Source of the DNA: Clostridia bacterium
GTDB taxonomy: Bacteria; Bacillota; Clostridia; Oscillospirales; Acutalibacteraceae
Reading direction: 5' to 3'
Assembly: GCA_017507805.1 (NCBI GenBank)
Contig: JAFWAC010000015.1
Span: forward strand, 62,001-126,000
DNA: 64,000 bases
Of the stretch, positions 17,169 to 63,054 are shown in pieces (the stretch's first letter is position 1; each line of letters begins with the position of its first letter). Position numbers and translations under genes: made by a program. The notes below the pieces were generated by a model. The model was not told the origin of the DNA and ran no database searches. It saw only the letters and a program-made list of their open reading frames with translations.

Positions 17169-17330
17169 GTGATTTTAAAGAGAAAAGTGATTGGAATAAT
17201 ACTTTTGTTATCGGTAGTGTTTACGGTCTGTTTTGTTACTGCGGATGAGGAGCACGCGGCGGATACCGCCTCGACTTTTCAAAACCGCCCGCAAATAATA
17301 CTTGATGCCGGCCACGAGGGCTTCAGTTAA
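17169..17330 (+). pseudogene. cwlD: 5' part of a CwlD-like N-acetylmuramoyl-L-alanine amidase, interrupted by the element
   Basis: The start is GTG at 17169, with GGAG at 17158-17161 seven bases before it. The product has a signal or membrane-anchor helix (residues 3-23), a short linker and then the amidase_3 opening strand PQIILDAGH. After codon 49, the zinc-binding His, the sequence changes to GAG GGC TTC AGT TAA and stops. The continuation GGFDGGA and the rest of the enzyme are found in the correct frame 45 kb away at 62485-63054. Joined, the two parts make 238 codons, close to the length of CwlD, which makes the muramic-lactam precursor in spore cortex. Confidence 0.88.
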
Positions 17331-17337
17331 TACTATG
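17297..17337 (+). other. attL, left junction of the element
   Basis: Chromosomal cwlD sequence runs up to CACG at 17313-17316; element sequence follows. The shared core with the right junction is CACG. The element-side arm (17317-17336) pairs imperfectly, in inverted orientation, with the element-side arm at the right junction, which places the central dinucleotide at CA 17313-17314. Confidence 0.75.
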
Positions 17338-17370
17338 GATTTTTAAAGTTTCGCCCAAAATGCAAACACA

Positions 17371-17399
17371 CGAAAACCCGCTTAAATAGCGGGTTTTCG
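17371..17399. terminator. terminator just inside the left end of the element
   Basis: A perfect 12-bp stem (CGAAAACCCGCT and its inverse) closes a five-base loop. A hairpin with the same core sequence occurs just inside the right end at 62395-62429. Confidence 0.7.
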
Positions 17400-17508
17400 G
17401 CGTTTTCAGTAAGGTTTCGTTGACAAAAAACGCAAAAATGATTGCTGATATAAACTGACAATAATTTATACTGATTGATACTATAATATATCAGAAAGAG
17501 AGATTGTT

Positions 17509-17831
17509 TTGGATATTTCTTTATTTACAAAAATTTTAAGGGATAAGCATTTTTGCGACTATGAAAAGTTGAGATATAAATATAACAATAATTTTGATGA
17601 TTTTTTGCATACCTTATTAAAAATGGTAGGATAACCGAAAAAGAAATAAAGCTTTGAAAGTTTGTTTTATCTTTTTACGGGACATCGAAATTTTTGACAA
17701 AACAACTTGAAAAGGACTTCGGTGATGCCGCTTATGCCACCATCAGAGGTTTTGTTCTTAAATTTGAAGAATTAGGTCTGCTATCATCTGTAAAAAACGG
17801 TGTCCGGATAATATATAAGGTTGCGAAATAA
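17509..17831 (+). pseudogene. decayed small gene, winged-helix-like C-terminus
   Basis: From a TTG at 17509 the reading is LDISLFTKILRDKHFCDY onward, reaching a stop at 17632. One frame over, the protein continues (KNGRITEKEIKL), meets an in-frame TGA at 17655-17657, and goes on as FGTSKFLTKQLEKDFGDA-like sequence to GVRIIYKVAK and a stop at 17829. The last 57 residues have the spacing of a small winged helix. One frameshift and one nonsense codon mean it is not functional. I do not recognise the parent family. The rest of 17331-18058 holds a terminator and the first operator. Confidence 0.5.
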
Positions 17832-17912
17832 AGTGTTTATCTTTTATAGTATATCTCAAATAACTATAGCCTCTTACAATATGTAATAAATATATTTAGA
17901 TGAATTTAGTCT

Positions 17913-17977
17913 TGGCAAAAAAACAAAAAAAATTGGCAGATATTCATATTGTTAATAAATTCAATGTTTGCTAAAAT
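17913..17977 (+). promoter_or_regulatory. regulon operator-promoter 1 (before the GH116 gene)
   Basis: TGGCA boxes start at 17913 and 17934 (21 bp apart). A -35 TTGTTA lies at 17949-17954, 15 bp after the second box start, then a 17-bp spacer and an extended -10 TGCTAAAAT (hexamer 17972-17977). The A-rich stretch between boxes is also conserved. The layout is identical in three other copies and fits activation by the AraC-type protein encoded at 32688-33548. Confidence 0.8.
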
Positions 17978-18058
17978 GATGATGGTTAGTTGTATATTTT
18001 ATCACTAATACGGTTCTCAAAACAAAAGTATATATTTGTTGAAATGGTGGAATTTTTT

Positions 18059-20581
18059 ATGGTTTACACAGGAAAGCATTTAAAGGAAATTTCCTTTCCA
18101 ATAGGCGGAATAGGAACAGGCAGTATTGGACTTACAGGAAACGGTATGCTTCTTGATTGGGAGATATTTAACCGTCCTAATAAGGGGAGCTATAATGATT
18201 ACTGTCATTTTGCGGTAAAGGCAGAATATCCTGACGGCAGGGTGAATACAAGGGTACTTGCAGGAGATACTCTTCATAATCTTACGGGTAATTTCGAGGA
18301 TGGCTGTTATCTTGGATTCGGTCATGGACCTGAGCGAAAAACCCTTTGCGGTATGCCGCATTTTAAAAAGGTGAAATTTGACGGCAGTTTTCCTATTGCC
18401 ACTCTAACCTTTGAGGATGAAAACTTTCCGGCAAAGGTTATACTGAAGGCGTTTAACCCATTTATCCCACTTGATGCGGATAATTCCTCTATTCCTGCTG
18501 CTTTTTTTGATATAACCTTTAAAAGCCGTGAACCGAACATTAAGTATACAGCGGTGCTTTCGATGTGTAATAAGGTTGATTCGGGTATAAATAAAAGGGT
18601 TTCAAACGATAAATATACTATGATTTCGATGAAAACTGCGAATTTTCAGGAGGATAGTATCAATTATTGCGATATGACCGTGGCGGTTGATGCAAGTGAC
18701 GGACTTTATCAGGAATATTGGTATCGCGGCGGCTGGGAGGATGCACTCAACAGCTTTTGGTACGAGTTTAATAATGGTAATCTTGAAAATCGCACTTATG
18801 AAAAGGATGGTTATCGTGACAAATGTTCGGTTGGGGCAGTAAAAGAACTTGATTCAAAAAATTCTTGTAATTTCAGGTTCATTATTTCTTGGAATATGCC
18901 CAACAACTATAACTATTGGGAGCCGTGTAAAGACGAAAACGGAAAAGATGTTAGTTGGAAAAATTATTATACTACACTTTTTAAGGATTCGGTGGCTTCT
19001 TGTCTATACAGTCTTGATAATTGGGATATGCTTTATAAAAGAACCGATAGCTTTTGCAGGTCGCTTCATTCCTCCACACTTGATAAAAGCATAATTGATG
19101 CGGTATCCTCCACTATGTCTGTCCTGAAATCACCAACCGTGCTTCGTCTTGAGGATGGCACCTTCTATGCCTTTGAAGGTGTGCATCAGACAGAAGGCTC
19201 CTGTGAGGGTACCTGTACTCATGTATGGAGCTATGCCTACGCGCTTTGCTTTCTTTTCCCGGAGCTTGAACGAAGTATCAGAGATACAGAAATCAAGTAT
19301 AACACCGATGGGATAGGAAGTATGCAGTTCAGGAGTATGCTGCCGTTTGAACAGCGTGAAAGATGGGCTTTCCATCCTTGTGTTGACGGACAGATGGCAA
19401 ATATTGTTAAAATATACCGCGATTGGAAAATAAGCGGTAATAGTGATTGGCTCAAACAAAATTGGAATGATATAAAGAAGCTCCTTGAGTTTGCTTGGCA
19501 TAAGGATAATAAATACGAATGGGATCGCGACCGCGATGGAGTTTTAGAGGGGAGACAGCATCATACCCTTGATATGGAGTTTTTCGGGCCTACCGCATGG
19601 CTTGAGGGAATGTATCTTGCGGCACTTAAAGCGGCGGCAGAAATGGCAAAATTTCTGGGTGATGATGAGAAATGCAAGGAGTATACAGAGCTGTTTAATA
19701 AGGGCTATGAGTGGACTCGTGAAAACCTTTTCAATGGTGAATATTATTTCCATAAGATAGACCTTGAACATAAGGAATACGCTGAGCATTTTGATTGTCT
19801 TAACTATTGGAACGATGAAAAGCGCGAGCTTAAATATCAGATAGGTGAGGGTTGTGCAATAGACCAGATGCTTGGTCAATGGCATGCAACAATCAGCAAT
19901 TTGGGTGATGTTTTTGATAAATCTCAACGCCGTATTGCACTTAAAAATCTTTATAAGAATAACTTTAAAACCAACCTTCGTGAGCATACTAATCCATGGC
20001 GCTCTTTTGCACTTAACGATGAGGCGGGCACCCTGCTTTGCAGTTATCCCGAGGGTACAAGAAAGCCGGTTATTCCCATGGTTTACTGCGAGGAGTGCTG
20101 GACGGGGTGCGAGTATGCATTTGCGGGTCAGTTATTCAGCGAGGGACTTTATAACGAGGGTTTATCGGTTGTGAAAGCGGTGCGAAATCGCTTCAGAGGC
20201 GATAACCGCAACCCATATAATGAGTTTGAGTGCGGCAGTAACTATGCAAGAGCAATGTCAAGCTTTGCACTTTTGCCAATTCTTAGCGGATATGAGTTTG
20301 ATATGCCGAACAAGCATATCGGCTTCACCCCGAAAATCAAAGGTGATTTCAAATGCTTTTTCAGTATTGGAAGCGGTTGGGGCGATTTTGTTAAGACCGA
20401 AAGCTGTCAAAAAATTATTTTGCGTGGCGGAAAATTGGAACTTTGCAGTGTCACATTAGGCACGATAGGGAATGTAAAGAGGGTTATTGCGGACGGAAAA
20501 TGTGTAGATTTCACTCAGCGCGGTAATGATATATTGCTTGACAATGTAACGGTTAAGAGGGAAATCAAATTTGAAGTATAG
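18059..20581 (+). CDS. GH116-family glycoside hydrolase
   Basis: The protein has 840 residues and no signal peptide, so it is intracellular. GH116 enzymes are retaining beta-glucosidases or beta-xylosidases (related to bile-acid beta-glucosidase). The N-terminal block FPIGGIGTGSIGLTGNGMLL is the family hallmark. The catalytic (alpha/alpha)6 domain starts at about residue 340 with THVWSYAYALCFLFPELERS, PCVDGQMANIVKIYRDWKIS, and DRDRDGVLEGRQHHTLDMEF, which holds the expected Asp acid/base position. The start is the ATG at 18059 with GGTGGA before it; the longer reading frame begins inside the promoter. It is a single-gene unit between operator 1 and a terminator. Confidence 0.85.
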   Translation: MVYTGKHLKEISFPIGGIGTGSIGLTGNGMLLDWEIFNRPNKGSYNDYCHFAVKAEYPDGRVNTRVLAGDTLHNLTGNFEDGCYLGFGHGPERKTLCGMPHFKKVKFDGSFPIATLTFEDENFPAKVILKAFNPFIPLDADNSSIPAAFFDITFKSREPNIKYTAVLSMCNKVDSGINKRVSNDKYTMISMKTANFQEDSINYCDMTVAVDASDGLYQEYWYRGGWEDALNSFWYEFNNGNLENRTYEKDGYRDKCSVGAVKELDSKNSCNFRFIISWNMPNNYNYWEPCKDENGKDVSWKNYYTTLFKDSVASCLYSLDNWDMLYKRTDSFCRSLHSSTLDKSIIDAVSSTMSVLKSPTVLRLEDGTFYAFEGVHQTEGSCEGTCTHVWSYAYALCFLFPELERSIRDTEIKYNTDGIGSMQFRSMLPFEQRERWAFHPCVDGQMANIVKIYRDWKISGNSDWLKQNWNDIKKLLEFAWHKDNKYEWDRDRDGVLEGRQHHTLDMEFFGPTAWLEGMYLAALKAAAEMAKFLGDDEKCKEYTELFNKGYEWTRENLFNGEYYFHKIDLEHKEYAEHFDCLNYWNDEKRELKYQIGEGCAIDQMLGQWHATISNLGDVFDKSQRRIALKNLYKNNFKTNLREHTNPWRSFALNDEAGTLLCSYPEGTRKPVIPMVYCEECWTGCEYAFAGQLFSEGLYNEGLSVVKAVRNRFRGDNRNPYNEFECGSNYARAMSSFALLPILSGYEFDMPNKHIGFTPKIKGDFKCFFSIGSGWGDFVKTESCQKIILRGGKLELCSVTLGTIGNVKRVIADGKCVDFTQRGNDILLDNVTVKREIKFEV

Positions 20582-20650
20582 TATTAAAAAAGGATATATA
20601 ATATTCGTTTTCATAAGTGCAAAAAACACTTTAATGCATTAAAACAAACA

Positions 20651-20678
20651 GCACCTTACCTGTTTTATGGTAGGGTGC
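20651..20678 (+). terminator. terminator after the GH116 gene
   Basis: A ten-base stem, GCACCTTACC / GGTAGGGTGC (one G-T pair), closes an eight-base loop and is followed by a short T-rich tract. Confidence 0.6.
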
Positions 20679-20743
20679 CGTTCTATTATAAAAGGTGTTT
20701 TGTTGGAAAACATTTACATAAAGAAACAGGACAAAATCAGCCG

Positions 20744-20808
20744 TGGCAAAAAACAACAAAAAAATGGCAGATATTCACATTGTTAATGAATTTAATGTTT
20801 GATAAAAT
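20744..20808 (+). promoter_or_regulatory. regulon operator-promoter 2 (before the GH42 gene)
   Basis: TGGCA boxes start at 20744 and 20765. The -35 TTGTTA is at 20780-20785, followed by a 17-bp spacer and an extended -10 TGATAAAAT (hexamer 20803-20808). The distances are identical to copy 1. Confidence 0.8.
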
Positions 20809-20874
20809 GATTATAATTAGGTACTAAAAGGGATAATTTCACTCAAAAAACAGTTTGATATTGGAGGTAATTAT

Positions 20875-22935
20875 ATGTTTTTCCCAAAAATAGTTTATGG
20901 CACTCAGTATTATCGTTCGCCAACTCCTCTCCCTGACGAATGGGAAGGCGATATTGCAAAAATGGAAGAATTCGGTATGGATGCTTTTCAAATCCGAATT
21001 AATTGGCGATGGAATGAAAAGCGAGAAAACGAATATGATTTTTCAGATATTGACGGATTGTTGGAGCTGGCACATAAAAACGGAAGAAAGGTTGTAATGA
21101 AATTTCTTTTGGAATGTGCTCCACAGTATATTTATGACAAATATAACGGTACGAGAATAGGACCGCGTGGTGAAAAAATCAGAGGCGGCTCTCACGGAGC
21201 TTTTTATGGCGGTTGGCGTCCCTGCTTCACCAATCCGGATGTTCAACGCCGTGCCAAAGCCTTCGTTGAGAGGGTTGCTGAGCGTTATGCAGATAATCCG
21301 GATATTATTCTTTGGAACACCTGGAATGAAATACGCAATAAACCCTTTGAGGATTGCTTTTGCCCTCATTGCCGCAAGGCATTCGGTAATCATTTAAAGG
21401 AAAGATTTGGAACAATTGAAAAATTAAATGAATTTTACGGAACGGCTGAAGATGATTTCGATACGATTGCTTTGCCGTCAACCCCTCACGGTTATTGGGA
21501 TACTTTTGAGTTTAAAAAATTTAAAGGCGGTAAAGAGCTTTATAATTATCTGAAATTTGTGTATGACGGTATTAAGAAATATGACAAACGGCGTCCAATT
21601 ATGGCGCATGTTGGTGTAACAAGCGCTTTTCAGCCCTCGCTGGACGATGTTTGTGATGACCATACAGTATCGAAGGCTGTGGATTTTTGGGGCACATCTA
21701 TTCCTTGCGATTGTGCTATGGATACTCACGAAAAACGCATGGATTTTGCTATGCTTATGGACGCGGTTCGAGGCGTAGACGAGAATTTCTTTTTGCATGA
21801 AATCTATCCCGGACTTGGTATGTTTTGTATGCCGTACGACACCCCGTTTGACATGTCGTATAAGCTATATTCAGCTATTGCAGGCGGTGCAAGAGGCTTG
21901 ATATATTGGCAATACCGCGCCGAGCGCATTGGATATGAAAGTGACTGTGCCGGATTGTTCCGCGTGGATGGATCGCCCCGTCCTGTGGCTTTTGCGGCTC
22001 AGAGCTTTGCTGAAAATTTACATAAGGATATGAATTATTTTGCCGGTGCTAAAGTGGCAAAAGCGCAGGTCGCAATCGTTTTTGATTTTAATTCTTCCCT
22101 TATTTCTGCTATTGACGATACTATTGGAGCTGATTTCTCTTTTGAATTCAAAGGCTATCGTTTTTATTATCAAAGGTCTCACTCGGGAATGTATCGATTG
22201 CTGCAGGATGCAGATATAGCAGTGGATTATATCGGTGTAAATGATGTTGAAAAATTTAAGGATTACAAATTGTTATATTTCCCGTATCATACAATGCTGA
22301 ATCCTGAAATGGTACCCCATTTGGAAAAATTCATTCGTGAGGGTGGCGCAGCCATCTGCGATGAAGGCTTTGGTTTAAGAACTATGAATACATGGATGCA
22401 GCCGTATGATATTGATTGCAAACCGATTATGACAGCCCGTCTTTTTGAACGCCGATACATTAATCAGGATACAATTTCAGTAAACGGAAAAGAAATCAGC
22501 TTTACTCCGGCTAAAACAATTTATAAGGTGGAGGATGCTGAAACACTATTGTCCTTTAACGATGGCTCTCCGGCACTCTCTGAGGTCAAACACGGTGAGG
22601 GTAGGGTTTATTTGTCCGGTTTACCGATAGGATACAGTTATCATAAATATCAATCAAAGGAATTGATGAGCTATATAAAGACAATTTGCACCGATCAGGG
22701 TGTAATGCAAAATCAATATTCTGAATGCTTGTCTGATGTTACCGAAAAGCGAATGATAGGTGACGGCTATGAGATTATTTTCCTGTTTAATAGCTCGGAA
22801 GCAGAAAAAAGCTTTAAATTTGATGATGTGATTTCCTATGGCTTTACCTCGGGCTCCTTTGAAGGCGGCAAGCTTTGCCTTCCTGCCAAGACAATGGGAT
22901 ATGTTATCAAAAAAATTGATCGGAATATCAAATGA
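20875..22935 (+). CDS. GH42-type beta-galactosidase-like enzyme
   Basis: The 686 residues are cytoplasmic. The layout is an N-terminal (beta/alpha)8 barrel (about 1-390) with acid/base E152 in WNTWNEIRNK and nucleophile E309 in FLHEIYPG, the spacing seen in GH42. The family's zinc-like cluster follows the acid/base (CFCPHCRKAFGNHLKERFG). Then come a Rossmann-like trimerisation domain (about 395-590, ending in VYLSGLPIGYSYH) and a C-terminal beta domain. Family members remove beta-galactose or alpha-L-arabinopyranose, and the exact sugar here is not determined. A strong GGAGG Shine-Dalgarno precedes the ATG. It is a single gene under operator 2. Confidence 0.82.
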   Translation: MFFPKIVYGTQYYRSPTPLPDEWEGDIAKMEEFGMDAFQIRINWRWNEKRENEYDFSDIDGLLELAHKNGRKVVMKFLLECAPQYIYDKYNGTRIGPRGEKIRGGSHGAFYGGWRPCFTNPDVQRRAKAFVERVAERYADNPDIILWNTWNEIRNKPFEDCFCPHCRKAFGNHLKERFGTIEKLNEFYGTAEDDFDTIALPSTPHGYWDTFEFKKFKGGKELYNYLKFVYDGIKKYDKRRPIMAHVGVTSAFQPSLDDVCDDHTVSKAVDFWGTSIPCDCAMDTHEKRMDFAMLMDAVRGVDENFFLHEIYPGLGMFCMPYDTPFDMSYKLYSAIAGGARGLIYWQYRAERIGYESDCAGLFRVDGSPRPVAFAAQSFAENLHKDMNYFAGAKVAKAQVAIVFDFNSSLISAIDDTIGADFSFEFKGYRFYYQRSHSGMYRLLQDADIAVDYIGVNDVEKFKDYKLLYFPYHTMLNPEMVPHLEKFIREGGAAICDEGFGLRTMNTWMQPYDIDCKPIMTARLFERRYINQDTISVNGKEISFTPAKTIYKVEDAETLLSFNDGSPALSEVKHGEGRVYLSGLPIGYSYHKYQSKELMSYIKTICTDQGVMQNQYSECLSDVTEKRMIGDGYEIIFLFNSSEAEKSFKFDDVISYGFTSGSFEGGKLCLPAKTMGYVIKKIDRNIK

Positions 22936-22976
22936 CCGTAATATATCTTTTAAATAAAATTGCCCGATTTTAAATG

Positions 22977-23041
22977 TGGCAAAAAAACACAAAAGAATGG
23001 CAATTATACATATTGCCAACAAAATTAGCGTTTACTATAAT
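22977..23041 (+). promoter_or_regulatory. regulon operator-promoter 3 (before the solute-binding protein operon)
   Basis: TGGCA boxes start at 22977 and 22998. The -35 TTGCCA is at 23013-23018, followed by a 17-bp spacer and a -10 TATAAT at 23036-23041. This copy has the best -10 and lacks the TG extension. Confidence 0.8.
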
Positions 23042-23124
23042 TATATTGTGAAAAAAATCAACAAATAATCATTTTAATAGATGGTTTGATTTGAAACACA
23101 GAAATTTTTAAGGAGTTGTAATTA

Positions 23125-24618
23125 ATGGAACGAAGAATTATTAGAATTTTATCGGCTGTTTTATGCGTAAGCATTCTTTTGACACTTACAGCGTGCGGAG
23201 ATTCGGGGAGAACGGTTATCGATCCGGATTCTTTAGAAACCAGCACCGTTATTACTACCGAAAGCAATGATACCGGTTCTCAGGATGAAAACGGAGAGCA
23301 AACCGTAAGCGGTAGCTCTAATCTGCGCTTTGGGGTTACTAATACCAAAAAAATGCCCAACTTTATTTCTAAAATCAAGAACAATACGCTTACTGTACTT
23401 TCATCGTCAGCAGGTGGAAGCAGTGTTGAGTTTGATACCCAGCTTGAAATTTTTAAAGAGCTTACAGGAATTGATTTAAAATTCGATACCATCGTTGTTC
23501 CGTGGAGTCAGATGCCCGAAAAGCTTGCTTCAATGGTTATGGCGGGTTCAGCGCCTGACCTGTTTGATTATGCTCAAAGCTCTTGGCTTTCTTTGCTCAA
23601 GCAACCATATTGGGACGATTTGAATAAATATATAGATTTTGACGATGCGCTATGGAAGGATGTAAAAAATGTTGCTCCTGCTATATCTACATATAACGGC
23701 AAGCGCGTTGCATTTTTCACAACCGGTTATGGTTTGACAGGTAATACCATTATATACAATACAAAGCTTGTGCAGGATGCCGCAGAGGGCGATGCTTCAT
23801 TATATGATCCCCTCGATATGTTCTATGACGGAAAGTGGACTTGGTCTGCTCTTCAAAAGTATGTTGAAAAGATAAGTGATCCTGATGATGGTATCTATGG
23901 TATCGCTCTTCCGAATAACCGTATATCTGCCTTTATTGCAACTACCGGTAATGACATTATCAGAATCAATTCTTCTACACAAAAGCTTGAATATAATCTT
24001 GAAAACAAGAATGTTACCCGTGCTTTTAATTATGCTAAGTCATTAATTAAATTATCCGATCTTCCGGGAACCTGGCAGGGTATGAGTATGGTTCTCAGTG
24101 ATTCCTTAGGATTCTTCTGCGATGTAAACGGCGCATGGCCACTCAAGGATTCTGCCGACACAATAAAGGCTGTAAAAGCAGGAAAAATATTAGCAGTACC
24201 GTTCCCGAGAGACGATAATGTAGATGTTTATTATAGCGGAAGCCTTTCGGATCCTACCTGTATACCGCTTAAGGCTAAAAATCCGTGGCTTGCATCGGCG
24301 TGGCTGTATTTCAAGAGATATATGGCTTATAATCCGAATAAAGAGCTGTCTGCTAAGAATGAGAAGCTTTACAAAGAAACATACGGTTGGCCCGATAAGC
24401 TTTATATGTTAAATTCACCCGAAGCGCATGGGGATGTATTTAAGAAGGTTAATGTGACATATACCATGGATGTTATTCCGTTTGGTGAGCGTCTTGCCGA
24501 TTTTGATCAGGATACATATTGGAGCCTTGCTACAAATGTCAATGTGCTTACCTCTCAAATGGTAGAGCAGGTAGGACCGAGCCTGAAAACAGCTATAAAT
24601 AGATTTAACAGCAAATAA
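23125..24618 (+). CDS. sugar ABC transporter solute-binding lipoprotein
   Basis: The 497 residues begin with a lipoprotein signal peptide whose lipobox is LTAC (Cys about 25), then an acidic Ser/Thr linker (about 27-60) and a family 1 extracellular solute-binding domain. Visible features are LEIFKELTGIDLKFDTI (first lobe), KLASMVMAGSAPDLFDY and the hinge-region AFFTTGYGLTGNTIIYNTKL. It captures an oligosaccharide outside the cell for one of the permease pairs encoded 17-24 kb downstream. It is the first gene of a unit with the repeat protein and the lipoprotein that follow. Shine-Dalgarno AAGGAG. Confidence 0.87.
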   Translation: MERRIIRILSAVLCVSILLTLTACGDSGRTVIDPDSLETSTVITTESNDTGSQDENGEQTVSGSSNLRFGVTNTKKMPNFISKIKNNTLTVLSSSAGGSSVEFDTQLEIFKELTGIDLKFDTIVVPWSQMPEKLASMVMAGSAPDLFDYAQSSWLSLLKQPYWDDLNKYIDFDDALWKDVKNVAPAISTYNGKRVAFFTTGYGLTGNTIIYNTKLVQDAAEGDASLYDPLDMFYDGKWTWSALQKYVEKISDPDDGIYGIALPNNRISAFIATTGNDIIRINSSTQKLEYNLENKNVTRAFNYAKSLIKLSDLPGTWQGMSMVLSDSLGFFCDVNGAWPLKDSADTIKAVKAGKILAVPFPRDDNVDVYYSGSLSDPTCIPLKAKNPWLASAWLYFKRYMAYNPNKELSAKNEKLYKETYGWPDKLYMLNSPEAHGDVFKKVNVTYTMDVIPFGERLADFDQDTYWSLATNVNVLTSQMVEQVGPSLKTAINRFNSK

Positions 24619-24668
24619 TTACAGTTGTTTAGTTTGGTTCTATAATTATATTAATCATAGGAGGAAGT

Positions 24669-28622: not shown

Positions 28623-28623
28623 A

Positions 28624-30363: not shown

Positions 30364-30401
30364 GGAGGATAATGATAACATAATAGCATAATTTAATCCG
30401 T

Positions 30402-30428: not shown

Positions 30429-30482
30429 GCGATTTGTGAAATATGAGAAAAAACATATAAATTTATAAGGAGGCTAATATTT

Positions 30483-51980: not shown

Positions 51981-52111
51981 TTTAATGATTGTGCTTATGG
52001 TAGTTTGAAATGAAGAATTTAAGTATACCGACAAAATGAAGTATACTAAAATAATGGGCTTGAATTTTTGAGGGAAAAGCGGTGTGAAATCACTTGCAAA
52101 AGAGGGAGCGT

Positions 52112-54832: not shown

Positions 54833-54840
54833 TATAAGCA

Positions 54841-54990: not shown

Positions 54991-55154
54991 TTTCAAAAAC
55001 AAAAAACAATCCCGAAAGGCTATAATAATTAAGCCTATTAAGAGCATATGACTATTAAATGGTATGATGTAGGTTTTCATAACTCATAGCCTTATCCTTG
55101 GCGTTTTTTTATGCCCTAATATGTAGTTCATTTAATAATTACAAGGGTTAACAG

Positions 55155-55183
55155 TTGAATTTTAAAATGATATATTGTATAAT
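55155..55183 (+). promoter_or_regulatory. promoter of the first HipA-like gene
   Basis: TTGAAT (55155-55160) and TATAAT (55178-55183) are separated by 17 bp, 35 bp before the start codon. Confidence 0.6.
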
Positions 55184-55218
55184 GTATTAAATACTAAAAA
55201 GGAAAGGAGAAGTGGTTT

Positions 55219-56253
55219 ATGAAGGATTTTGAGGTTTTAAGCCGTGATACGGTTGTAGCGATTTGGAAAGACAACAAACTTATAGTTTTAAATAATGATT
55301 TATTGCCGTTATATTTAAAACGCATAAGTAATGCTGAATCTTGGCTTGAAACAAGGGCTATTGACTCACACAGACCAAACTCTCGTTTGTTAAAAAAGGC
55401 TTTGAGACTTGCCGAAAAAGACGATGTTTCAACAGTACTTCATGTTAATGCCGCAACTATTACCGATACCTATTGGGTGCGTGAAATTGGCAGCAGTTTA
55501 AAATATGAAGACATCCGATTCACAAAAGACTATTTCTCCAATCTGGCACTTAGAGGACTATATTCAAGTTTTAATTCCGCGGCAAGACACAAGGATACTA
55601 AAACGCCTGAACTTACTAATATAGGCAGTTTTGAAAAGTGTTGGAAGCTGAAAGACGGAAAATGGTGGATTTATAAATCCGCTAACCAAAAAGAACAGTT
55701 CTCCGAACTTTTTATTTATGAGTTGGGTAAGGCATTCGGTATGAATATGGCACATTATGAAAAAGGTGTTAAATGTGTAAAATCACTTGATTTCACCGAT
55801 TACGCCAGCGTCATATTTGAACCGGCTTCATCCTTTATGGGCGATGAAGAAGATTACATTAAGGTTGTAGAGAAGTTAAAAGAACTTTGTCCTAAAGCAA
55901 TTCCCGATTATATTAAAATGATTTTCCTTGATACTATAACTGCTAACCCTGACAGACACACAGCAAACTTCGGTTTAATGCGTGACGCAAAAAATGGTGA
56001 ACTGTTAGGACTCGCACCAAATTTTGATAACAATATGGCTCTTATTGCTCGCGGTTATCCCACAAGCAAACCCGCAAACGACCTTTTAATCACACTCTTT
56101 AATGAACTAATGGATAATTTTCCTGAATATAAAAAGTTTTTGCCAAAAGTCACAGAGCAGATGATTATGAAAGTTATAAGCAAAATTAATATGAAGGTTA
56201 AGTCACAAGTAATTGTTGATTTTGTTATTAAGCGTTATCAAGCAATTAAATAA
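55219..56253 (+). CDS. HipA-like kinase-fold protein
   Basis: The 344 residues show the HipA-type catalytic loop TANPDRHTANFGLM followed by the metal-binding segment LAPNFDNNMAL. An ATP-binding Lys is plausible in WWIYKSANQKEQFSELF. The N-terminal 100 residues (TVLHVNAATITDTYWVR) lack the HipB-contact domain of classic HipA, and no HipB-type repressor gene is adjacent. HipA proteins phosphorylate host targets such as tRNA synthetases; the target here is unknown. The next gene, a SEC-C protein, starts six bases after the stop, so the pair is co-transcribed. It could be a toxin, a defence factor or an element-maintenance gene. Confidence 0.75.
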   Translation: MKDFEVLSRDTVVAIWKDNKLIVLNNDLLPLYLKRISNAESWLETRAIDSHRPNSRLLKKALRLAEKDDVSTVLHVNAATITDTYWVREIGSSLKYEDIRFTKDYFSNLALRGLYSSFNSAARHKDTKTPELTNIGSFEKCWKLKDGKWWIYKSANQKEQFSELFIYELGKAFGMNMAHYEKGVKCVKSLDFTDYASVIFEPASSFMGDEEDYIKVVEKLKELCPKAIPDYIKMIFLDTITANPDRHTANFGLMRDAKNGELLGLAPNFDNNMALIARGYPTSKPANDLLITLFNELMDNFPEYKKFLPKVTEQMIMKVISKINMKVKSQVIVDFVIKRYQAIK

Positions 56254-56258
56254 GAGAA

Positions 56259-57035
56259 ATGATTATGATGAAAGATTTAATATTAAGATATTTTGATGCA
56301 TTTTCAAATTTATACGGTATTATTCCGATGAAAAGAGCGTATCGTATTATCGAAAAACAAAATCCGGAATTGAACCTTACCAAAGAGCTGTTTGCGGAAA
56401 TTGTAAATGCCCTTGATTTTCCGGATAAATATTATGTTATCTGGAGCGAGGAAGAAGTATATGATGAAAATGCTGATGAAACGGATTTATTCGATAAAAT
56501 ATTGATTCCAGATTATATATTAACATTTGGCGATCCTGCGGATTACGAAAAACTCGTGTTTGAGCAAGGTGATAGACCTTTTTATGTGCCCGAAAAGGAT
56601 GAACTTCTAAAATATGAGGATGATTTTTATTACGAAAGAACTAAACATGTTGTTAATTTAGAAAACTATTTAAGGGATGATTTAGGACTGCGCAATTATA
56701 GAGGAATTGTTGAAGATTTTGCAGCAATGTTGAAAATTGACGATGATGAACCTGATGAGATAGTTGCAATGTTAAGAAGAATGGGAGCTCCGAAATTTAA
56801 AGAATTTTCAAGTAAAGAGCAGGCACATAAATTTTTTATGCTTTATACCAATTTGAGAAATCACACCCGAAAGCATACGCATAGAGGGCATACACCTTTT
56901 GAGCTTGATGATTGCTATACGGTAGATGGTATTATCGAAAACGGTATACTAACTAAAGTGAATACTTCAAGCAAAAACGGAAAATGTCCGTGCGGCAGCG
57001 GCAAGAAATATAAAAGATGCTGTGGCAGAGAGTGA
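56259..57035 (+). CDS. SEC-C motif protein
   Basis: The 258 residues end in a zinc-binding SEC-C motif, CPCGSGKKYKRCC. The rest is largely helical and acidic (EEEVYDENADETDLFDKILI) with no other domain I recognise. SEC-C motifs occur in SecA and in many small proteins of mobile and defence loci as metal-binding adaptors. Co-transcription with the HipA-like gene suggests a partner or regulator. The start is one of several ATGs clustered at 56259-56270; the first is given. Confidence 0.7.
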   Translation: MIMMKDLILRYFDAFSNLYGIIPMKRAYRIIEKQNPELNLTKELFAEIVNALDFPDKYYVIWSEEEVYDENADETDLFDKILIPDYILTFGDPADYEKLVFEQGDRPFYVPEKDELLKYEDDFYYERTKHVVNLENYLRDDLGLRNYRGIVEDFAAMLKIDDDEPDEIVAMLRRMGAPKFKEFSSKEQAHKFFMLYTNLRNHTRKHTHRGHTPFELDDCYTVDGIIENGILTKVNTSSKNGKCPCGSGKKYKRCCGRE

Positions 57036-57086
57036 ACAAAAAATAAGAGTATAAATGCATTTAAAGAATAAGTCGTTCACAGAAAA

Positions 57087-57141
57087 TTAACACAATATAT
57101 TGATTTTGAACGTTGACAAATCGTATATTTTGTGTTAATGT
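57087..57141 (+). promoter_or_regulatory. promoter with 14-bp operator dyad, copy 1
   Basis: TTGACA (57113-57118) and extended -10 TGTTAATGT (hexamer 57136-57141) are separated by 17 bp. Inverted 14-bp arms (TTAACACAATATAT at 57087-57100; inverse at 57125-57138, one mismatch) flank the -35 and overlap the -10, as expected for a repressor site. Confidence 0.65.
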
Positions 57142-57147
57142 AAAAAT

Positions 57148-57390
57148 GTAATTATTTTTGTGCGCTGCCCGGCTTGGGCTTACCGCAAAGATAAAATATC
57201 TTTGCATTGCACACACACGGTGAGTTTGTAAAGACCATAGGATTGTTGCGACCAAAAGTCGGCGTATAATCACTATGGAGGTTGTGAGGGTTATTATGCC
57301 CATTTACTTTTCAAAATGAATAGGGCTCATATTATGTGAGCTACAAAGGTAAAGGATCTTGATGCCGGTTTTTGCATCAAGTCCTTTTTT
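57148..57390 (+). ncRNA. candidate structured RNA, copy 1
   Basis: No ORF fits between the promoter and a strong terminator (stem AAAGGA-CTTGATGC with its inverse, 57351-57390). Visible helices are GCCC/GGGC (near 57168-57180), a perfect GCAAAGATA/TATCTTTGC (57185-57205), an outer TGTGC/GCACA closing both, CCATAG/CTATGG enclosing CGAC/GTCG (57235-57277), and GCTCA/TGAGC (57325-57341). A related copy lies at 58847-59080. Function and family unknown. It ends 147 bp before the second HipA-like gene. Confidence 0.6.
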
Positions 57391-57537
57391 GCGTTTAAAT
57401 GATATTGCAATCTTTATTTAATTGTGTTAAAATAACTTAAAATAGCAATTAAATATGTTTATATTATTTGTTAATTGTTTGGTGAAATTATAAATGATAG
57501 TTTGAATATATAATTCAATTATAGTGGAGGTGAGCTT

Positions 57538-58665
57538 ATGGGTATCGGTGTTAAAGCTGATCTAATGCAAAAAGGCTGGAAATTCTTTGATATAATGCAT
57601 AAAAACAGACAGGTTGCACGTATTTATGAAAACGGAAAATGCACTATATATTATCCTTCGTTTATGCCATATAATCTATATTTTGAGAAATCAAATGATT
57701 TCGATAGCAGGGTAAATAATTTAAATAATTTTTATTATTGGTGTGCTTCAAGAGTGTTGACTTTAGATAGAAAATATGCTAAAGAAATTTTGAGGGTTAT
57801 TGGTGCAAAACAAGCAGTAACGGACAAAGATAGAGCTCTGATCGCTGTTTCTTATCATGGGTTAACTTTAACAGATGTGTTTTGGATAAGACGTGCCAAA
57901 GAACAGATTACTTTTGAGGAACTTAATTTATATAGCCATTCGCTTTCAGATGCCTTTGCTGATGTAAGTCTTAGAGGTAAAGATATAACTCTTCAAAACG
58001 CCGAACTTTTCACCACACAAGATTCAGCAGGAGATATTGGAACAGTTGGTGTCGCACCAAAAGCTTGGGTTAGAAAAAACGGAGATTTCTATCTTTTGAA
58101 AGATGGCGATGAACGTGATGTGGATGCAGAGCTTCTTGCTTCAAAAATTGTCGGTTGCTTTAAAGTGGACTATGTGCCATATGAAGAGGAATTTTTCGAT
58201 GGTATAAAGGTGTCTAAATGTAAGATAATTACTTCCGAACAAACAAGCATAGTATCTTTTGAATTTATAGATGTGTATTGTACAAATCGTGATATAAATA
58301 AGTTTGAGTATGTTTTAAAAAAAGATAGTTATTCATATTACATGATGAATATTATTGATTATCTTATTGGTAATACAGATAGACATTGGGGCAATTGGGG
58401 CTTTTTTGTTGATAATTCCACAAACAAATTACAAGGTTTATATTCGCTGATGGATTTCAACAAATCTTTTTTATCATACGATACTATTGATGGCGCCAAA
58501 TGTCAAACCACTGATAAGAAGATTACGCAGCGTGAGGCTGCTATAGAAGCAGTCAAAAAAATAGGATTAAATAAAATATCCGAAGTAAAAAAAGAATGGT
58601 TTTCTAATGAGCAGGAATGCGAGATGTTCTTCATAAGGCTTGAAATTTTAGAAAAATCAATCTAA
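57538..58665 (+). CDS. second HipA-like kinase-fold protein
   Basis: The 375 residues carry the catalytic loop YLIGNTDRHWGNWGFFVD and metal-binding SLMDFNKSF, both HipA-like. The N-terminal part (SYHGLTLTDVFWIRRAKEQITFEE) parallels the first HipA-like protein (TITDTYWVREIG), so the two are distant paralogues with the same layout. It lies between the two candidate RNAs and has its own Shine-Dalgarno (GGAGG). No HipB-like gene is adjacent. A possible -10 TATAAT at 57509-57514 has no good -35. Confidence 0.75.
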   Translation: MGIGVKADLMQKGWKFFDIMHKNRQVARIYENGKCTIYYPSFMPYNLYFEKSNDFDSRVNNLNNFYYWCASRVLTLDRKYAKEILRVIGAKQAVTDKDRALIAVSYHGLTLTDVFWIRRAKEQITFEELNLYSHSLSDAFADVSLRGKDITLQNAELFTTQDSAGDIGTVGVAPKAWVRKNGDFYLLKDGDERDVDAELLASKIVGCFKVDYVPYEEEFFDGIKVSKCKIITSEQTSIVSFEFIDVYCTNRDINKFEYVLKKDSYSYYMMNIIDYLIGNTDRHWGNWGFFVDNSTNKLQGLYSLMDFNKSFLSYDTIDGAKCQTTDKKITQREAAIEAVKKIGLNKISEVKKEWFSNEQECEMFFIRLEILEKSI

Positions 58666-58785
58666 ATTAAAAAGGCATGAACTATTAATCGTTAACGGTA
58701 GTTTGATGAAGATCTGTTTCAGGACAATGCTTGACCTTGCTTAAATGTATCAGAGCTTATAAACAATAACCTGTTCACAGAAAAG

Positions 58786-58840
58786 TTTACACAATATATT
58801 GATTTTTAAGATTGACAAATCGCATATATTGTGTTAATGT
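58786..58840 (+). promoter_or_regulatory. promoter with 14-bp operator dyad, copy 2
   Basis: TTGACA (58812-58817) and TAATGT (58835-58840) are separated by 17 bp. Inverted arms (58786-58799 and 58824-58837) differ at one position and occupy the same places relative to the promoter as in copy 1. Confidence 0.65.
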
Positions 58841-58846
58841 ATAGCT

Positions 58847-59080
58847 GTTGATGTTATATGCGCACGCACGAGAGGGCACCCGTAGAGACGAAAATTGCTC
58901 TGCATCGCGCAACGCCGTTGAGATTGTATTGACCTTGAAGTAGTATGCCTATTTGCCATGAAAAAAGGTTTTTAAGTGCTATTTTAATGTGTTTTTTGAA
59001 AAAATGAATATGGCTCATATTCTGTGAGCGACAGTAAACTAAAGGACTTTGATGTTTGTTTCAGCATCAAGTCCTTTTTT
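58847..59080 (+). ncRNA. candidate structured RNA, copy 2
   Basis: It shares with copy 1 the promoter dyad, an outer TGCGC/GCGCA helix near the 5' end, a CG-TTGAG-TTGTA-GACC-like segment, the 3' hairpin GCTCA/TGAGC (59013-59029) and the terminator (59041-59080). The middle helix CCATAG/CTATGG of copy 1 is absent. Sequence differs greatly while the layout is kept, which favours an RNA product over a decayed duplicate. Confidence 0.55.
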
Positions 59081-59159
59081 GCGTTTGAATGACAAAAAAT
59101 ACTGATTGACTAACCCAACAATCAAAAAAGTATTTTAAAGATAAAGGAGATTAAAATTT

Positions 59160-59252
59160 ATGAAATTAAAGAAATCAGCAAATCAAATTTGCAAAAGTTC
59201 AAAAAAACCGTTTCGGTATTTCTTGCGATTTTATACCGAAACACACTACTGA
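59160..59252 (+). CDS. possible 30-residue basic peptide
   Basis: ATG at 59160 follows AAAGGAGA. The peptide MKLKKSANQICKSSKKPF onward is very basic and ends at a TGA at the foot of a terminator. A perfect 10-bp hairpin (GTTTCGGTAT and inverse, 59210-59242) lies inside it. It may be a leader peptide or no gene at all. Confidence 0.3.
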   Translation: MKLKKSANQICKSSKKPFRYFLRFYTETHY

Positions 59253-59281
59253 AAACGGCAGGACGGTGCCGTTTTATTTTT
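59252..59281 (+). terminator. intrinsic terminator
   Basis: AAAACGGCA, a six-base loop, TGCCGTTTT and a T tract form a clear rho-independent terminator. Confidence 0.75.
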
Positions 59282-59355
59282 TATAAATTTACATATATTA
59301 GATTTTCCCGTCCTAAAATCAGCGGAGTGGTAACGCTTAAAACTACCACAACAAA

Positions 59356-59392
59356 GCACCTGCAAATGCAGCCTGATATATCAGGTAGGTGC
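59356..59392. repeat. nested palindrome
   Basis: GCACCT and AGGTGC enclose a perfect 14-bp palindrome, CCTGATATATCAGG (59372-59385). It is a possible recombinase or regulator site ahead of the tyrosine recombinase. From 59393 to 59622 I see nothing else beyond the Shine-Dalgarno AAGGAG of the next gene. Confidence 0.4.
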
Positions 59393-59622
59393 AACGCCGC
59401 AGAGGATAAGCCCACCCTCAAACTTTTCAAAGTTTTATGCGGAGATTTACTAAACACACCTCGTAATTCAACAGAGACAGAATCAAATCGCCAAATAATA
59501 ATCCTTTAGATAAGCGGATTTATGCCGATATGGGTTCGGAAAACAGGCGGAAATGCCATAGTGTGTTAATAGGGATAATTGTGCTCATTTGCAGGTGAAA
59601 GAAAAAATTAAGGAGAAACATT

Positions 59623-60515
59623 ATGAAAAATTTTTATACCAATCTATTATTCCAAGCACAAAGGCTTTACCGCCACAGCAGGCAGGGAAGTTACAAAACA
59701 AAGGAACGCTATTTTGAAGCATATAAGCGTTTTCTGAAATTCGTAGGTGATACCTATAATCTGCAAAAACTACAAAGCATATCCGGTAAACATCTATCCG
59801 CTTATATTGATTATATGCAAGATAAGGGATATTCTGCATCGACAATAAAGACCGACCTTGCCGCAATTCGTTTTTGGTACGACCAGATACCAAACGCAAA
59901 GTATACTTTACCTACCAATGATGAATTCGTTTTGGAAAGAAGAAAATTCGGTAATGTTGACCGTACATGGAGTATGCGGGAATTTAATTTGATGATTGCT
60001 GAATGTTGGAAGCACAAAAGAGATGATTATGCTGCCTGTTTAGTTGTTGCAAGGTATGCAGGACTGCGTTTGCACGAAGTATTAAGGATTGACACTGCGA
60101 TAGCAAGAAATGCCCTTAAAGACGGTTTTATTACCATTAAGGGTAAGGGTGGCAAAATCAGGGAAGTACCGATAAATGAAAGTATATGCATTGTTCTTAA
60201 AAAGCATCTTAAAACCACGCCGCAAGGATACAAACTTTTTGTACCGAAAGATAAGCAGACACACATAGTAAAAACTGAGATTCAAACATTTATATTAAAG
60301 TATCGAAAAAAGGTTTGTGACGAAGGATCGGCAAGAACACTAACCTTCCACGGACTTCGCCATACTTGTGCCGCCGAGTGGTACAGTAAATTCATATCCG
60401 AGGGCAAGACCGAACACGAGGCAAAACTTATGGTATCTAAACTGCTCGTCACGAAAGGGAAAATGTGACAAGAATTTATCTTGCAAGCATTAAGGGAAGT
60501 GATGCCGATGGCTGA
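59623..60515 (+). pseudogene. tyrosine recombinase, frameshifted in the LGH motif
   Basis: The N-terminal SAM-like domain (about 1-95) and the catalytic domain are intact through Arg in ARYAGLRLHEVL, Lys in KGKGGKIREV and HxxR in FHGLRHTCAAEW. After VSKLL the frame reads VTKGKM and stops at 60468. One frame over, starting at the same place, the sequence is HERENVTRIYLASIKGSDADG and a stop at 60515. Inserting one G near 60448 restores LLGHERENVTRIY with the nucleophile Tyr. As given, the protein ends at 281 residues without the Tyr and should be inactive. Confidence 0.8.
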
Positions 60516-60600
60516 AGGGATTTAGGGATTTCGGAAACATTAAGAGCATTAAATTCGCATAATTATTTTGTAAGCGAACATTCATTGGGGGATATTTGCC

Positions 60601-60798
60601 ATGAAAAATAATTTATGCAATTATGATGTTAAAAACATATTTATAAGCAAAACCCAAGATGAAGTGAAACAAATGATAAATTTAAAAATTAGAAACCTTT
60701 GTGTAATGGAAGTTGAAAAAATTTATAGTTTCGATTATAATATAGATATTCACATTTTGGGCGATACTTCTGAAACTGAAAAAGGGGAAGTGTCGTAA
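60601..60798 (+). CDS. 65-residue protein directly before the integrase
   Basis: The ATG is preceded by GGGGGA at eight bases and the stop is two bases before the integrase ATG, so the two are translationally linked. The product (MKNNLCNYDVKNIFISKTQD onward) is small and acidic towards the end, with no known domain. Directionality factors of serine integrases are often small proteins encoded next to the integrase, so this is a candidate; that role is only inferred from position and size. Confidence 0.55.
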   Translation: MKNNLCNYDVKNIFISKTQDEVKQMINLKIRNLCVMEVEKIYSFDYNIDIHILGDTSETEKGEVS

Positions 60799-60800
60799 CT

Positions 60801-62387
60801 ATGCTGACTGAAATTGCGGATATTTATGTTCGGCTTTCCTCAGAGGACAGAGACAAGAAAAATGCCACTGATGAGAGTGAGAGTATCCAAAATCAAAAAA
60901 CAATGCTTATAAACTACTGTGTGGAGAAAGGGTGGCAGATAAACGGTATCTACTGTGATGAGGATTACAGTGGTGCAGATGCTAAAAGACCCGCATGGAA
61001 TCAAGTGCTTCGTGACTGCGAAGAAAGAAAATGCTCGATAGTTGTATGTAAAACACAATCCCGTTTTTCCCGTGATATGGAGATGATAGAACGCTATATT
61101 CACGGAAAATTTCTTGAATGGGGTGTGCGGTTTGTCGGTGTGGTTGACAATGCCGATACAAGCATCAAGGGCAACAAAAAAGCCCGACAGATAAACGGTC
61201 TTGTAAATGAATGGTATTTAGAGGATCTGTCCGAAAATATCAAATCAACCTTAAAGACTAAACGCCGAAACGGTGAATTTGTCGGCTCGTTTGCACCTTA
61301 TGGTTATCTTGTTGACCCAAACGATAAAAACCATCTTATAATTGATGAGGTGGCGGCACCGGTTGTCAGACGAATATTTGAAATGTATATACAAGGGTTT
61401 GGTTATATCGCAATAGCCAAATCACTCAACAGCGAAAATATTCCGCCGCCGTGCGTTCACAAAAAACAACAGGGTCTAAGGTATTATAATGGTAATTTTG
61501 AAAAAAACTCAAATCCTCAGAAGGTTTGGTCGGAAGCGTCTATTTACTCTATACTTCGTCGCTTGGAATATACGGGTGCTCTTGTGCAGGGGCGGCGTGA
61601 GGTCATAAATTATAAGACTAAAAAGCGCCGTAAAAAACCTGAAAAAGAGTGGGATATTGTTGAGAATATGCACGAACCTATCGTTACCTTAGAACAGTAT
61701 CTAAAGGTGCAGGAACTGAGGCACAATCGAGGAAGAGGGCAGAAGATTCCAAGCGGTAAATGCTATGCGTTTGCACGAAAGGTCTTTTGCGGCGAGTGCG
61801 GCAATACTATGTGGAAGATGAGTTATAAACTCGCACACGGCAGTTATAATTATCTTGCTTGTCGGACGAGAAAAACCGCAAACGGTGTTTGTGAAAACGA
61901 ACACAGTATTCGGCTTGATGAACTTACCGAAATAGTGCTTTGTGAAATCAACAAGCTTCTTGAAAGGTACTATGACGAGGGACAAATAGGTAGCATTTCC
62001 AAACCTAAAAGAGGCGGCCGCAATGAAAACTCGTTGCTTTCGGAAATTGAAGAGCTTGAAAAAAAGATAAAGAGAAACGACGACCGAATGGCACAGATGT
62101 ATAGTGATAAGTTGGACGGTCTTATAACACCCGAGCAATTTATTAAATACCGTGAAACATACATTAAAGAATCCTCCGCACACGAAGAACGCATTGTTTT
62201 ACTAAAGCAAAAATTAAAAACTTTAACGGGAACCACTGATTATTTTGACCCCGAAAGTGTCCTGAAAAAGTATTGGCATATCGAAGAACTAACCTTTGAA
62301 ATTGTCGATGAATTTATCAGTAAAATCTTCATTTTTAAAAAAGAGGACGGCAAAAAACGGGAGATAAAAATCGAGTGGAAAATTTGA
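60801..62387 (+). CDS. large serine recombinase (integrase of the element)
   Basis: The 528 residues hold a resolvase-type catalytic domain (about 5-150) with nucleophile S13 in IYVRLSSEDR and the Arg cluster CKTQSRFSRDMEMIER, a recombinase domain (about 170-290; APYGYLVDPNDKNHLIIDE, GFGYIAIAKSLNSENIPPP), a zinc ribbon (about 330-380; FCGECGNTMWKM ... ACRTRKTANGVC) with an inserted coiled coil (about 405-480), and a beta C-terminus. All domains needed for integration are present. It ends 92 bp from attR, the usual position for the integrase of such an element. The coupled small ORF upstream may modulate it. Confidence 0.93.
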   Translation: MLTEIADIYVRLSSEDRDKKNATDESESIQNQKTMLINYCVEKGWQINGIYCDEDYSGADAKRPAWNQVLRDCEERKCSIVVCKTQSRFSRDMEMIERYIHGKFLEWGVRFVGVVDNADTSIKGNKKARQINGLVNEWYLEDLSENIKSTLKTKRRNGEFVGSFAPYGYLVDPNDKNHLIIDEVAAPVVRRIFEMYIQGFGYIAIAKSLNSENIPPPCVHKKQQGLRYYNGNFEKNSNPQKVWSEASIYSILRRLEYTGALVQGRREVINYKTKKRRKKPEKEWDIVENMHEPIVTLEQYLKVQELRHNRGRGQKIPSGKCYAFARKVFCGECGNTMWKMSYKLAHGSYNYLACRTRKTANGVCENEHSIRLDELTEIVLCEINKLLERYYDEGQIGSISKPKRGGRNENSLLSEIEELEKKIKRNDDRMAQMYSDKLDGLITPEQFIKYRETYIKESSAHEERIVLLKQKLKTLTGTTDYFDPESVLKKYWHIEELTFEIVDEFISKIFIFKKEDGKKREIKIEWKI

Positions 62388-62394
62388 CGAAAAA

Positions 62395-62429
62395 TGCCGA
62401 AAACCCGCATAAATAAAGGTTTTTCGGCA
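62395..62429. terminator. terminator just inside the right end of the element
   Basis: TGCCGAAAACC and GGTTTTTCGGCA form a stem with one bulge. The core CGAAAACCCGC-TAAATA matches the hairpin at the left end. Confidence 0.65.
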
Positions 62430-62458
62430 CTTTTGAAAAACAGTAATTATTATCAAAG

Positions 62459-62500
62459 TATAGTGTTAGACGAACCACTCACACGGCGGGTTTGATGGCG
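62459..62500 (+). other. attR, right junction of the element
   Basis: Element sequence with two in-frame stops (TAG at 62461 and 62467) changes to cwlD sequence at CACG 62482-62485. The element-side arm ATAGTGTTA...CCACT (62460-62479) matches the inverse of the attL element-side arm at 14 of 20 positions. Confidence 0.75.
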
Positions 62501-63054
62501 GTGCAGTGGCAGGAGACGGTACGGTGGAAAAGGATATTAACCTTGAAATATGTCTTATGCTCGCAAAGCTTTTGCGTTCAAGCGGATATGATGTTATTAT
62601 GACGCGCGAGTCGGATACATCTACCGAGGATAACGAAGGCGATAAAATAGCCGCAAGGAAGAAAAGTGACTTGAAAAACAGGTTGAAGCTAATGTCGGAT
62701 TATCCTGATGCGGTTTTTGTGAGTGTTCATCTCAATAAGTTTACTACGAGTGCGGCACAAGGCTCTCAGGTTTTTTATGGCGCATCAAATGAGCAGTCGC
62801 GCCTTTTGGGTGAGAAAATTCAAAGCTGTATAATTTCACTTTTACAGCCCGAAAACACCCGTGTCAACAAGCAAGCAACCTCAAGTACATATATTCTGTA
62901 TAATGCTACAATTCCGGCAGTATTGGTGGAATGTGGTTTTTTAAGCAACAGTGCAGAGCTAAAAAGGCTCAAGGATACTGAATACCAACAAAAAATGGCT
63001 TTTTGTATTTTTTGCGGGATTAATCAATTTTTTTCAAAACATAAGGAGGTTTAA
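62485..63054 (+). pseudogene. cwlD: 3' part of the interrupted CwlD-like amidase
   Basis: It continues exactly after the zinc-binding His: GGFDGGAVAGDGTVEKDINL, with the zinc Glu in EKDINLEI, then FVSVHLNKF with the second zinc His and LVECGFLSN with the catalytic Glu. These 189 codons keep an open frame to the stop at 63052-63054. As it stands there is no start codon with a Shine-Dalgarno, and stops lie in frame just upstream, so it is silent unless the element leaves. The intact frame and conserved residues suggest recent insertion or selection for restoration. The radA Shine-Dalgarno lies within its last codons. Confidence 0.88.

Follow-up and report, generated by a model that had tools for sequence, protein, structure and literature searches.

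The stretch of DNA analyzed here (64,000 nucleotides, called the window below) comes from a Clostridia bacterium of the family Acutalibacteraceae (assembly GCA_017507805.1, genome G000 in our list; contig JAFWAC010000015.1, positions 62,001 to 126,000 of the forward strand). It carries an element of about 45.17 kb, whose last gene encodes a large serine integrase and which, judged from the sequence, is inserted inside the open reading frame (ORF) of the sporulation gene cwlD (Table 1). We take CwlD to be a sporulation protein, as the name of the TIGR02883 model also has it. The 5' part of cwlD comprises 49 codons and ends in IILDAGH, and the 3' part, of 189 codons plus the stop, opens with GGFDGGA. 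Fused across the CACG found at both junctions, the two parts form one open frame of 238 amino acids, as the original prediction had claimed; its further claim that both ends of the element can be read from the sequence held as well, since the common CACG narrows the crossover to 4 bp. The joined protein matches TIGR02883 (CwlD) from end to end, at profile positions 3 to 189 of 189 (E value, 4.2e-59; 199.8 bits). The amidase active-site motifs expected in it are whole, in the form of two histidine and two glutamate motifs, which we take to be the zinc ligands and the catalytic residue.

Among relatives, 23 uninterrupted cwlD genes were recovered as single ORFs from 30 loci of the host genus (one of them, in G432, is a special case treated below), and the two parts did not appear as separate ancestral genes. 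Homologs of the gene directly after cwlD in the window, presumably radA, also come after cwlD in relatives. In the carriers of such elements, all examined cwlD halves are open (3' half, 10 of 10 carriers; 5' half, 5 of 5). With a short common core and both halves open in frame, excision would restore the ORF exactly.

Island ends and attachment sites

The core at both ends is CACG or CATG in five elements, that is, the zinc-histidine codon plus G. The site expected in the excised form (attP) has opposed AATACTAT-type arms in the four near-clade elements with both ends available, and that of Marasmitruncus is without such arms. Six elements have both ends on a single contig and measure 45.17 kb (window), 30.4 kb (G401), 19.4 kb (G399), 7.7 kb (G402), 3.9 kb (Marasmitruncus), and about 3.7 kb (G768); left ends were additionally found in G413, G437, G466, G432, and G080. 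A terminator-like inverted repeat lies less than about 100 bp from the end at six of nine left ends and at the right end of the window element. A search for internal attachment-site relics within the window element gave none that was convincing.

One integrase clade at one target

By its domains, the window integrase would provide the element with a site-specific recombinase of its own, and the SPbeta integrase YokA is among its solved-structure matches (E value, 1.3e-8). A scan of genome contigs showed that all nine of its nearest relatives sit before a cwlD 3' half starting at the same histidine (HGG) codons, which makes the window junction more than a chance arrangement. A scan of 394 genomes of the order yielded one further carrier, G768, and in G080 (locus L016) the integrase faces and abuts a cwlD 5' half, the other end of that island being off the contig. 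The set of cwlD-abutting integrases therefore comprises twelve members, namely that of the window, nine in named records, and two from genome scans (G768 and G080).

In the integrase tree, these twelve lie on one side of a branch and 28 others on the other side (support, 98/91; 96% of 200 bootstrap trees), L016 having been moved from the other class to the cwlD-abutting class after the tree had been seen, on the ground of the adjoining 5'-half sequence. The first tree needed three changes: L016 had been classed as other, and L120 proved to be a wrong ORF and was dropped from the rebuilt tree, in which the 19 genus control integrases do not figure. No cwlD half was detected in the flanks of 48 other integrases (21, plus 19 from the genus and 8 from the order scan; flanks of at most 1.5 kb, some shortened by contig ends), the 5' half being checked by motif only. 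Identity to the window integrase alone does not split the groups, as the integrases of Marasmitruncus, G768, and G080 are 45 to 47% identical to it and the best controls 45 to 46%. Within the host genus, an integrase of the clade is present in 6 of 70 genomes. Together, these comparisons point to one integrase clade with one target, the zinc-histidine motif of cwlD, in line with the predicted role of the active-site motif as a conserved integrase target.

Horizontal movement of the islands

The integrases of G398, G399, G403, G404, and G406, of which three are partial, show 94 to 97% identity, with a synonymous divergence (dS) of 0.31 to 0.52. The cwlD genes of these hosts are 50 to 60% identical in nine of ten pairs and 86.5% identical (dS, 1.37) in one. 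Such near-identical integrases in hosts with divergent cwlD genes indicate that the islands move horizontally and that close relatives among them have inserted at one and the same cwlD codon in different hosts. The split state is scattered on the cwlD tree (nine changes, a count as low being obtained in 391 of 500 shuffles). Shared descent of integrase and cwlD was considered and is unsupported: the identities correlate at 0.49 over all pairs and at -0.04 once Marasmitruncus is removed, and the split label does not cluster. The window integrase gave no pattern match in viral contigs, and its relatives in phage and plasmid records are all below 60% identity.

Cargo of the window element and of other islands

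The cargo of the window element is, from its family assignments, a carbohydrate-utilization cluster. The sugar modules comprise glycoside hydrolase (GH) families GH116, GH42, GH38, and GH106, two proteins with dockerin matches, two ABC transport modules, a DUF5696 protein, and an AraC regulator. Among the 26 element proteins scanned with Pfam, there was no relaxase or type IV secretion family, and neither these nor the 10 proteins scanned with PHROGs included a phage structural or packaging family.

A repeat of 65 to 77 bp, 76 to 86% identical between copies, stands upstream of four cargo genes (17913-17989, 20744-20820, 22977-23044, and 33610-33674) and may serve the AraC regulator as a shared operator. 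In the region 30600-34400, internal direct repeats (70 to 79% identity) link the two dockerin-matching proteins and also recur inside them.

The cargo lists of the other islands cover part of their ORFs. That of G401 has a GH3 enzyme, a CBM30 protein, a sugar-binding protein, a DUF5696 protein, and a Fic protein, and that of G399 has a caspase-like protease, Hsp70, an AAA ATPase resembling IetA, an IrrE-like protein, and a SLOG match below the cut-off. LtrA and an iron alcohol dehydrogenase are found in G402, ThiF and PP-loop proteins in Marasmitruncus, and a reverse transcriptase matching defense group UG31 in G432. As far as these assignments tell, island cargo varies between sugar-degradation clusters, defense-like genes, and redox enzymes.

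One gene recurs. The HipA-like protein of the window, which matches the PADLOC candidate family PDC-M03A (E value, 3.5e-11), is 78 to 91% identical to its counterparts in other islands. Of the 70 genus genomes, eight have this gene at high identity: all six with an integrase of the clade, as well as G432 and G466, the latter with a partial copy at the end of a contig; both of these have an island left end in cwlD. The gene is absent from the two smallest islands, those of Marasmitruncus and G768, and in G402 (L011, 11659-12756) it lies between the integrase and attR rather than near attL, the sole such case among the nine relatives. Compared with solved structures, the HipA-like protein gave weak matches only, CtkA being the best plausible one (E value, 0.043).

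Table 1. Positions of the split gene, the element, and its genes in the window
Feature	Position	Strand	Basis or remark
cwlD 5' part, start to zinc-histidine codon	17169..17315	+	In-frame join, TIGR02883 match
attL region, core CACG 17313-17316	17277..17352	+	Outer limits approximate; core CACG/CATG also seen in four other elements, three of which have the AATACTAT arm
Whole element, about 45.17 kb	17317..62485	+	Joined cwlD parts, compared ends
Terminator-like GC-rich inverted repeat, just inside left end	17371..17400	+	Counterpart at 6 of 9 left ends
GH116 glycosidase (cargo)	17990..20581	+	Profile match
GH42 beta-galactosidase-like (cargo)	20875..22935	+	Profile match
497-amino-acid protein (cargo)	23125..24618	+	No family match
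1,317-amino-acid protein (cargo)	24669..28622	+	F5/8 type C match below cut-off
599-amino-acid protein (cargo)	28564..30363	+	No family match
Protein (cargo)	30483..32585	+	Dockerin type I match just above cut-off
AraC-family regulator	32688..33548	-	Profile match
1,210-amino-acid protein (cargo)	33665..37297	+	Dockerin type I match just above cut-off
Sugar-binding protein, ABC transporter 1	37328..40132	+	
ABC permease	40135..41043	+	
ABC permease	41060..41923	+	
485-amino-acid protein	41934..43391	+	Weak NHL and TPR matches
Yip1-domain protein	43376..44005	+	
DUF5696 protein	44023..46179	+	
ABC permease, transporter 2	46231..47121	+	
ABC permease, transporter 2	47037..48089	+	
408-amino-acid protein	48108..49334	+	No family match
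GH38 alpha-mannosidase-like	49380..51980	+	
GH106-like (alpha-L-rhamnosidase)	52094..54832	+	
HipA-like protein, recurrent in near element clade	55219..56253	+	Pfam 30.8 bits, cut-off 30.5
SEC-C motif protein	56259..57035	+	
375-amino-acid protein	57538..58665	+	Weak PDC-M03A match
Tyrosine recombinase, probably broken	59623..60468	+	Phage-type matches; frame seems to stop before expected catalytic end
orf65, 65-amino-acid ORF ahead of integrase	60601..60798	+	Candidate recombination directionality factor
Large serine integrase, 528 amino acids	60801..62387	+	Resolvase, Recombinase, zinc-ribbon domains
Terminator-like inverted repeat, just inside right end	62391..62435	+	Sequence
attR region, core CACG 62482-62485	62446..62520	+	Outer limits approximate; end comparison
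cwlD 3' part	62485..63054	+	In-frame join, TIGR02883 match
radA (presumed), downstream of cwlD, running beyond window end	63057..64000	+	Homologs after cwlD in relatives

Two unusual loci, G432 and G441

In G432 (L122), the left end of an island and the HipA-like gene are present, and an integrase of the clade was found neither in the stretch nor, at an E value of 1e-60, in the assembly. The cwlD 5' region is present there a second time (171 bp, 95.9% identical; neighboring 682 bp, 88.6%), and this copy runs into a complete cwlD, followed by radA; the duplicated stretches are 3446-4127/12368-13049 and 4234-4404/14854-15024 in the reverse complement of L122. If the arrangement is real, recombination would have repaired cwlD in a genome that had lost the integrase, in keeping with selection for the whole gene. 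It may also be a chimeric metagenome contig.

G441 was ruled out as a further case of split cwlD, as its two contigs (L127 and L128) overlap and hold an uninterrupted gene. They share exactly 141 bases and diverge 3 bases before the CACG core, a fork that may come from integrated and empty sites together in the sample or may have other causes.

Sporulation genes of the hosts

The window genome (2.34 Mb in 36 contigs, 87.6% complete) has an intact SpoIVA, as do four of five other carriers of the genus (the search being limited to the genus list), and its sigma-K is above the cut-off and uninterrupted. Besides their own cwlD halves, none of the 10 carriers has a CwlD match above 36% identity that could represent a second close copy. 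Marasmitruncus massiliensis, a cultured carrier, is described as spore forming (PMC9584879). An orf65-like ORF precedes the integrase in all seven aligned elements and is 24 to 44% identical to the orf65 of the window. The PdaA model was uninformative: each of the 10 carriers matched it, always below the cut-off, and matches also came from 10 of 14 control genomes.

Discussion

From the comparisons of sequence described above, we regard five points as established: that cwlD is split, that the ends are defined, that one integrase clade uses one target, that the islands spread horizontally, and that the host has sporulation genes. The results extend the original prediction in that the family moves between species, that its cargo changes, and that the interrupted gene serves sporulation/germination, its host having sporulation genes. 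We are confident that the element belongs to a family of mobile genomic islands with serine integrases, for which the zinc-histidine codon of cwlD is the chromosomal target (attB), and see mother-cell excision as the most likely consequence of the insertion. Taken by itself, the rebuilding of cwlD by excision in the mother cell during sporulation, by analogy with skin, SPbeta, and gin, is to us about an even bet.

Our current working model is the following. The integrase would recombine attP, with opposed arms around a CACG/CATG core in the near clade, with the DNA encoding the DAGHGG-FDGG motif; as this attB would be a motif that CwlD strictly requires, any host with CwlD would offer a target. 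The integrated island splits cwlD, and its precise exit would rebuild the gene. Excision in the mother cell during sporulation would then provide CwlD for the spore cortex, and the island would be kept in the spore chromosome, with the orf65 product as a candidate directionality factor. We infer the integration by the window integrase, the excision and its timing, and the role of orf65. Tentatively, and at somewhat less than an even chance, cwlD may be viewed as a developmental docking site, where the invariant active-site codons of a germination amidase would serve as attB and where excision confined to the mother cell, letting the cortex be completed, would allow spreading islands to carry sugar-utilization or defense cargo without lowering spore fitness.

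Several observations weigh against our preferred explanation. The joined protein falls below the curated TIGR02883 cut-off of 221.55 bits, which is passed by none of the 70 genomes of the host genus. SpoIVA was not found in G437 (an assembly 79% complete), and sigma-K is, by score, doubtful in G398 and G399, with only a partial match in G404. The excised junction, searched as the attP pattern, was found in none of the 70 genus assemblies and in no viral contig. Patterns for sigma-E, sigma-K, and sigma-A were recognized ahead of orf65 in none of seven elements, in a strict scan that turned up not even a sigma-A site. orf65 has no family match and is only 24 to 33% identical in the two most distant of the seven elements. 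The median ratio of nonsynonymous to synonymous substitution rates is similar in the two groups, 0.148 for split pairs and 0.160 for intact pairs; a usable ratio came from 9 of 45 and 97 of 253 pairs, respectively, most of the comparisons being saturated. Furthermore, the insertions are younger than the divergence of the hosts, so that the open frames of the halves are no proof that selection acted once the island was in.

The strongest rival is a plain mobile island that knocks out cwlD, with no developmental excision, CwlD being dispensable in the gut or poor germination sufficing. The insertions indeed look recent and horizontal, and the missing excised form, the unrecognized sporulation promoter ahead of orf65, and the restriction of the clade integrase to a small minority of the genus genomes all speak for it. 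However, a mere knockout does not readily account for one sporulation gene being targeted again and again, for every examined cwlD half being open, for a whole cwlD in G432, in which no clade integrase was found, or for a carrier described as spore forming; we consider it a serious possibility but would not bet on it. Another way for the insertion to be tolerated would be a new start, supplied by the element to the cwlD 3' half and yielding a CwlD without signal peptide. Several elements have an in-frame TTG just before the core (L011, position 12796), and a GTG that overlaps the integrase stop in Marasmitruncus (L014, position 11566) could start the 3' half. In the window, however, the frame is closed by a stop ahead of the core, and the start listed next, at 62506, comes only after most of HGGFDGGA; moreover, the product would lack an export signal, and we find this explanation improbable. 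A prophage or an integrative conjugative element would suit the integrase and the tyrosine recombinase with phage-type matches, but is very unlikely given the absence of structural, packaging, relaxase, and type IV secretion families from the scanned proteins and the lack of a close integrase relative in the viral, phage, and plasmid sequences searched. An assembly artifact or an ancient rearrangement with no insertion is hardly credible: metagenome-assembled genomes make up eight of the nine named-record carriers, but the same-motif junction recurs with one integrase clade in 12 different genomes, including the isolate Marasmitruncus (2.1 Mb contig), and relatives have an uninterrupted gene.

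The kind of element described here is known; what is new is the target gene cwlD, the broad horizontal spread, and the swappable cargo. Sporulation genes for which such splitting is reported include sigK, spsM, spoVFB, spoVR, gerE, and yabG. The proposed mother-cell excision has analogs in gin (PMC5595907), SPbeta (PMC4191935), and the skin element of Clostridioides difficile (PMC5025042). For gin, which interrupts gerE in Bacillus cereus ATCC10987, there is proof of excision in sporulating cells and of the directionality factor (PMC5595907). The cwlD islands resemble gin in being nonphage elements with serine recombinases, located in a sporulation gene and without conjugation structural genes, and in having an attachment site with an inverted repeat and an exact junction that restores the ORF. 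They differ from it in target gene and hosts, in that excision and directionality factor are proposed from sequence and analogy, and in a cargo that differs between members and includes sugar-utilization and defense-like genes (PMC5595907). With skin (in sigK) and SPbeta (in spsM), they have in common a serine recombinase, an interrupted sporulation gene, and a small directionality factor, a candidate in our case; unlike those elements, which count as prophages or prophage-like (PMC4191935, PMC5025042), the window element yielded no phage structural gene among the proteins scanned. yin likewise lies within a sporulation gene, yabG of Clostridium botulinum, but it resembles a prophage and is reported from a single strain only, whereas cwlD islands occur in at least 12 genomes (PMC10747680). 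Diverse large serine integrases that share one conserved site in a coding gene, there a prolyl isomerase, have also been described (PMC10083194); neither cwlD nor amidase is mentioned in the main text of that report. In the literature searched, with preprints and most subscription journals outside its range, we found no report of cwlD split by a serine recombinase, an integrase, or, judged from titles and abstracts, an intervening element.

With our results, cwlD would join the few sporulation genes that mobile elements are known to split. If the docking-site reading is true, the germination competence of the host would depend on the island's own integrase. Since a cultured and reportedly spore-forming carrier has an island of 3.9 kb, the excision model is directly testable. 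More broadly, a whole integrase clade is locked on one active-site motif, its cargo swapping between sugar-utilization, defense-like, and redox genes. The islands also suggest a route by which large sugar-utilization clusters may move between gut Clostridia.

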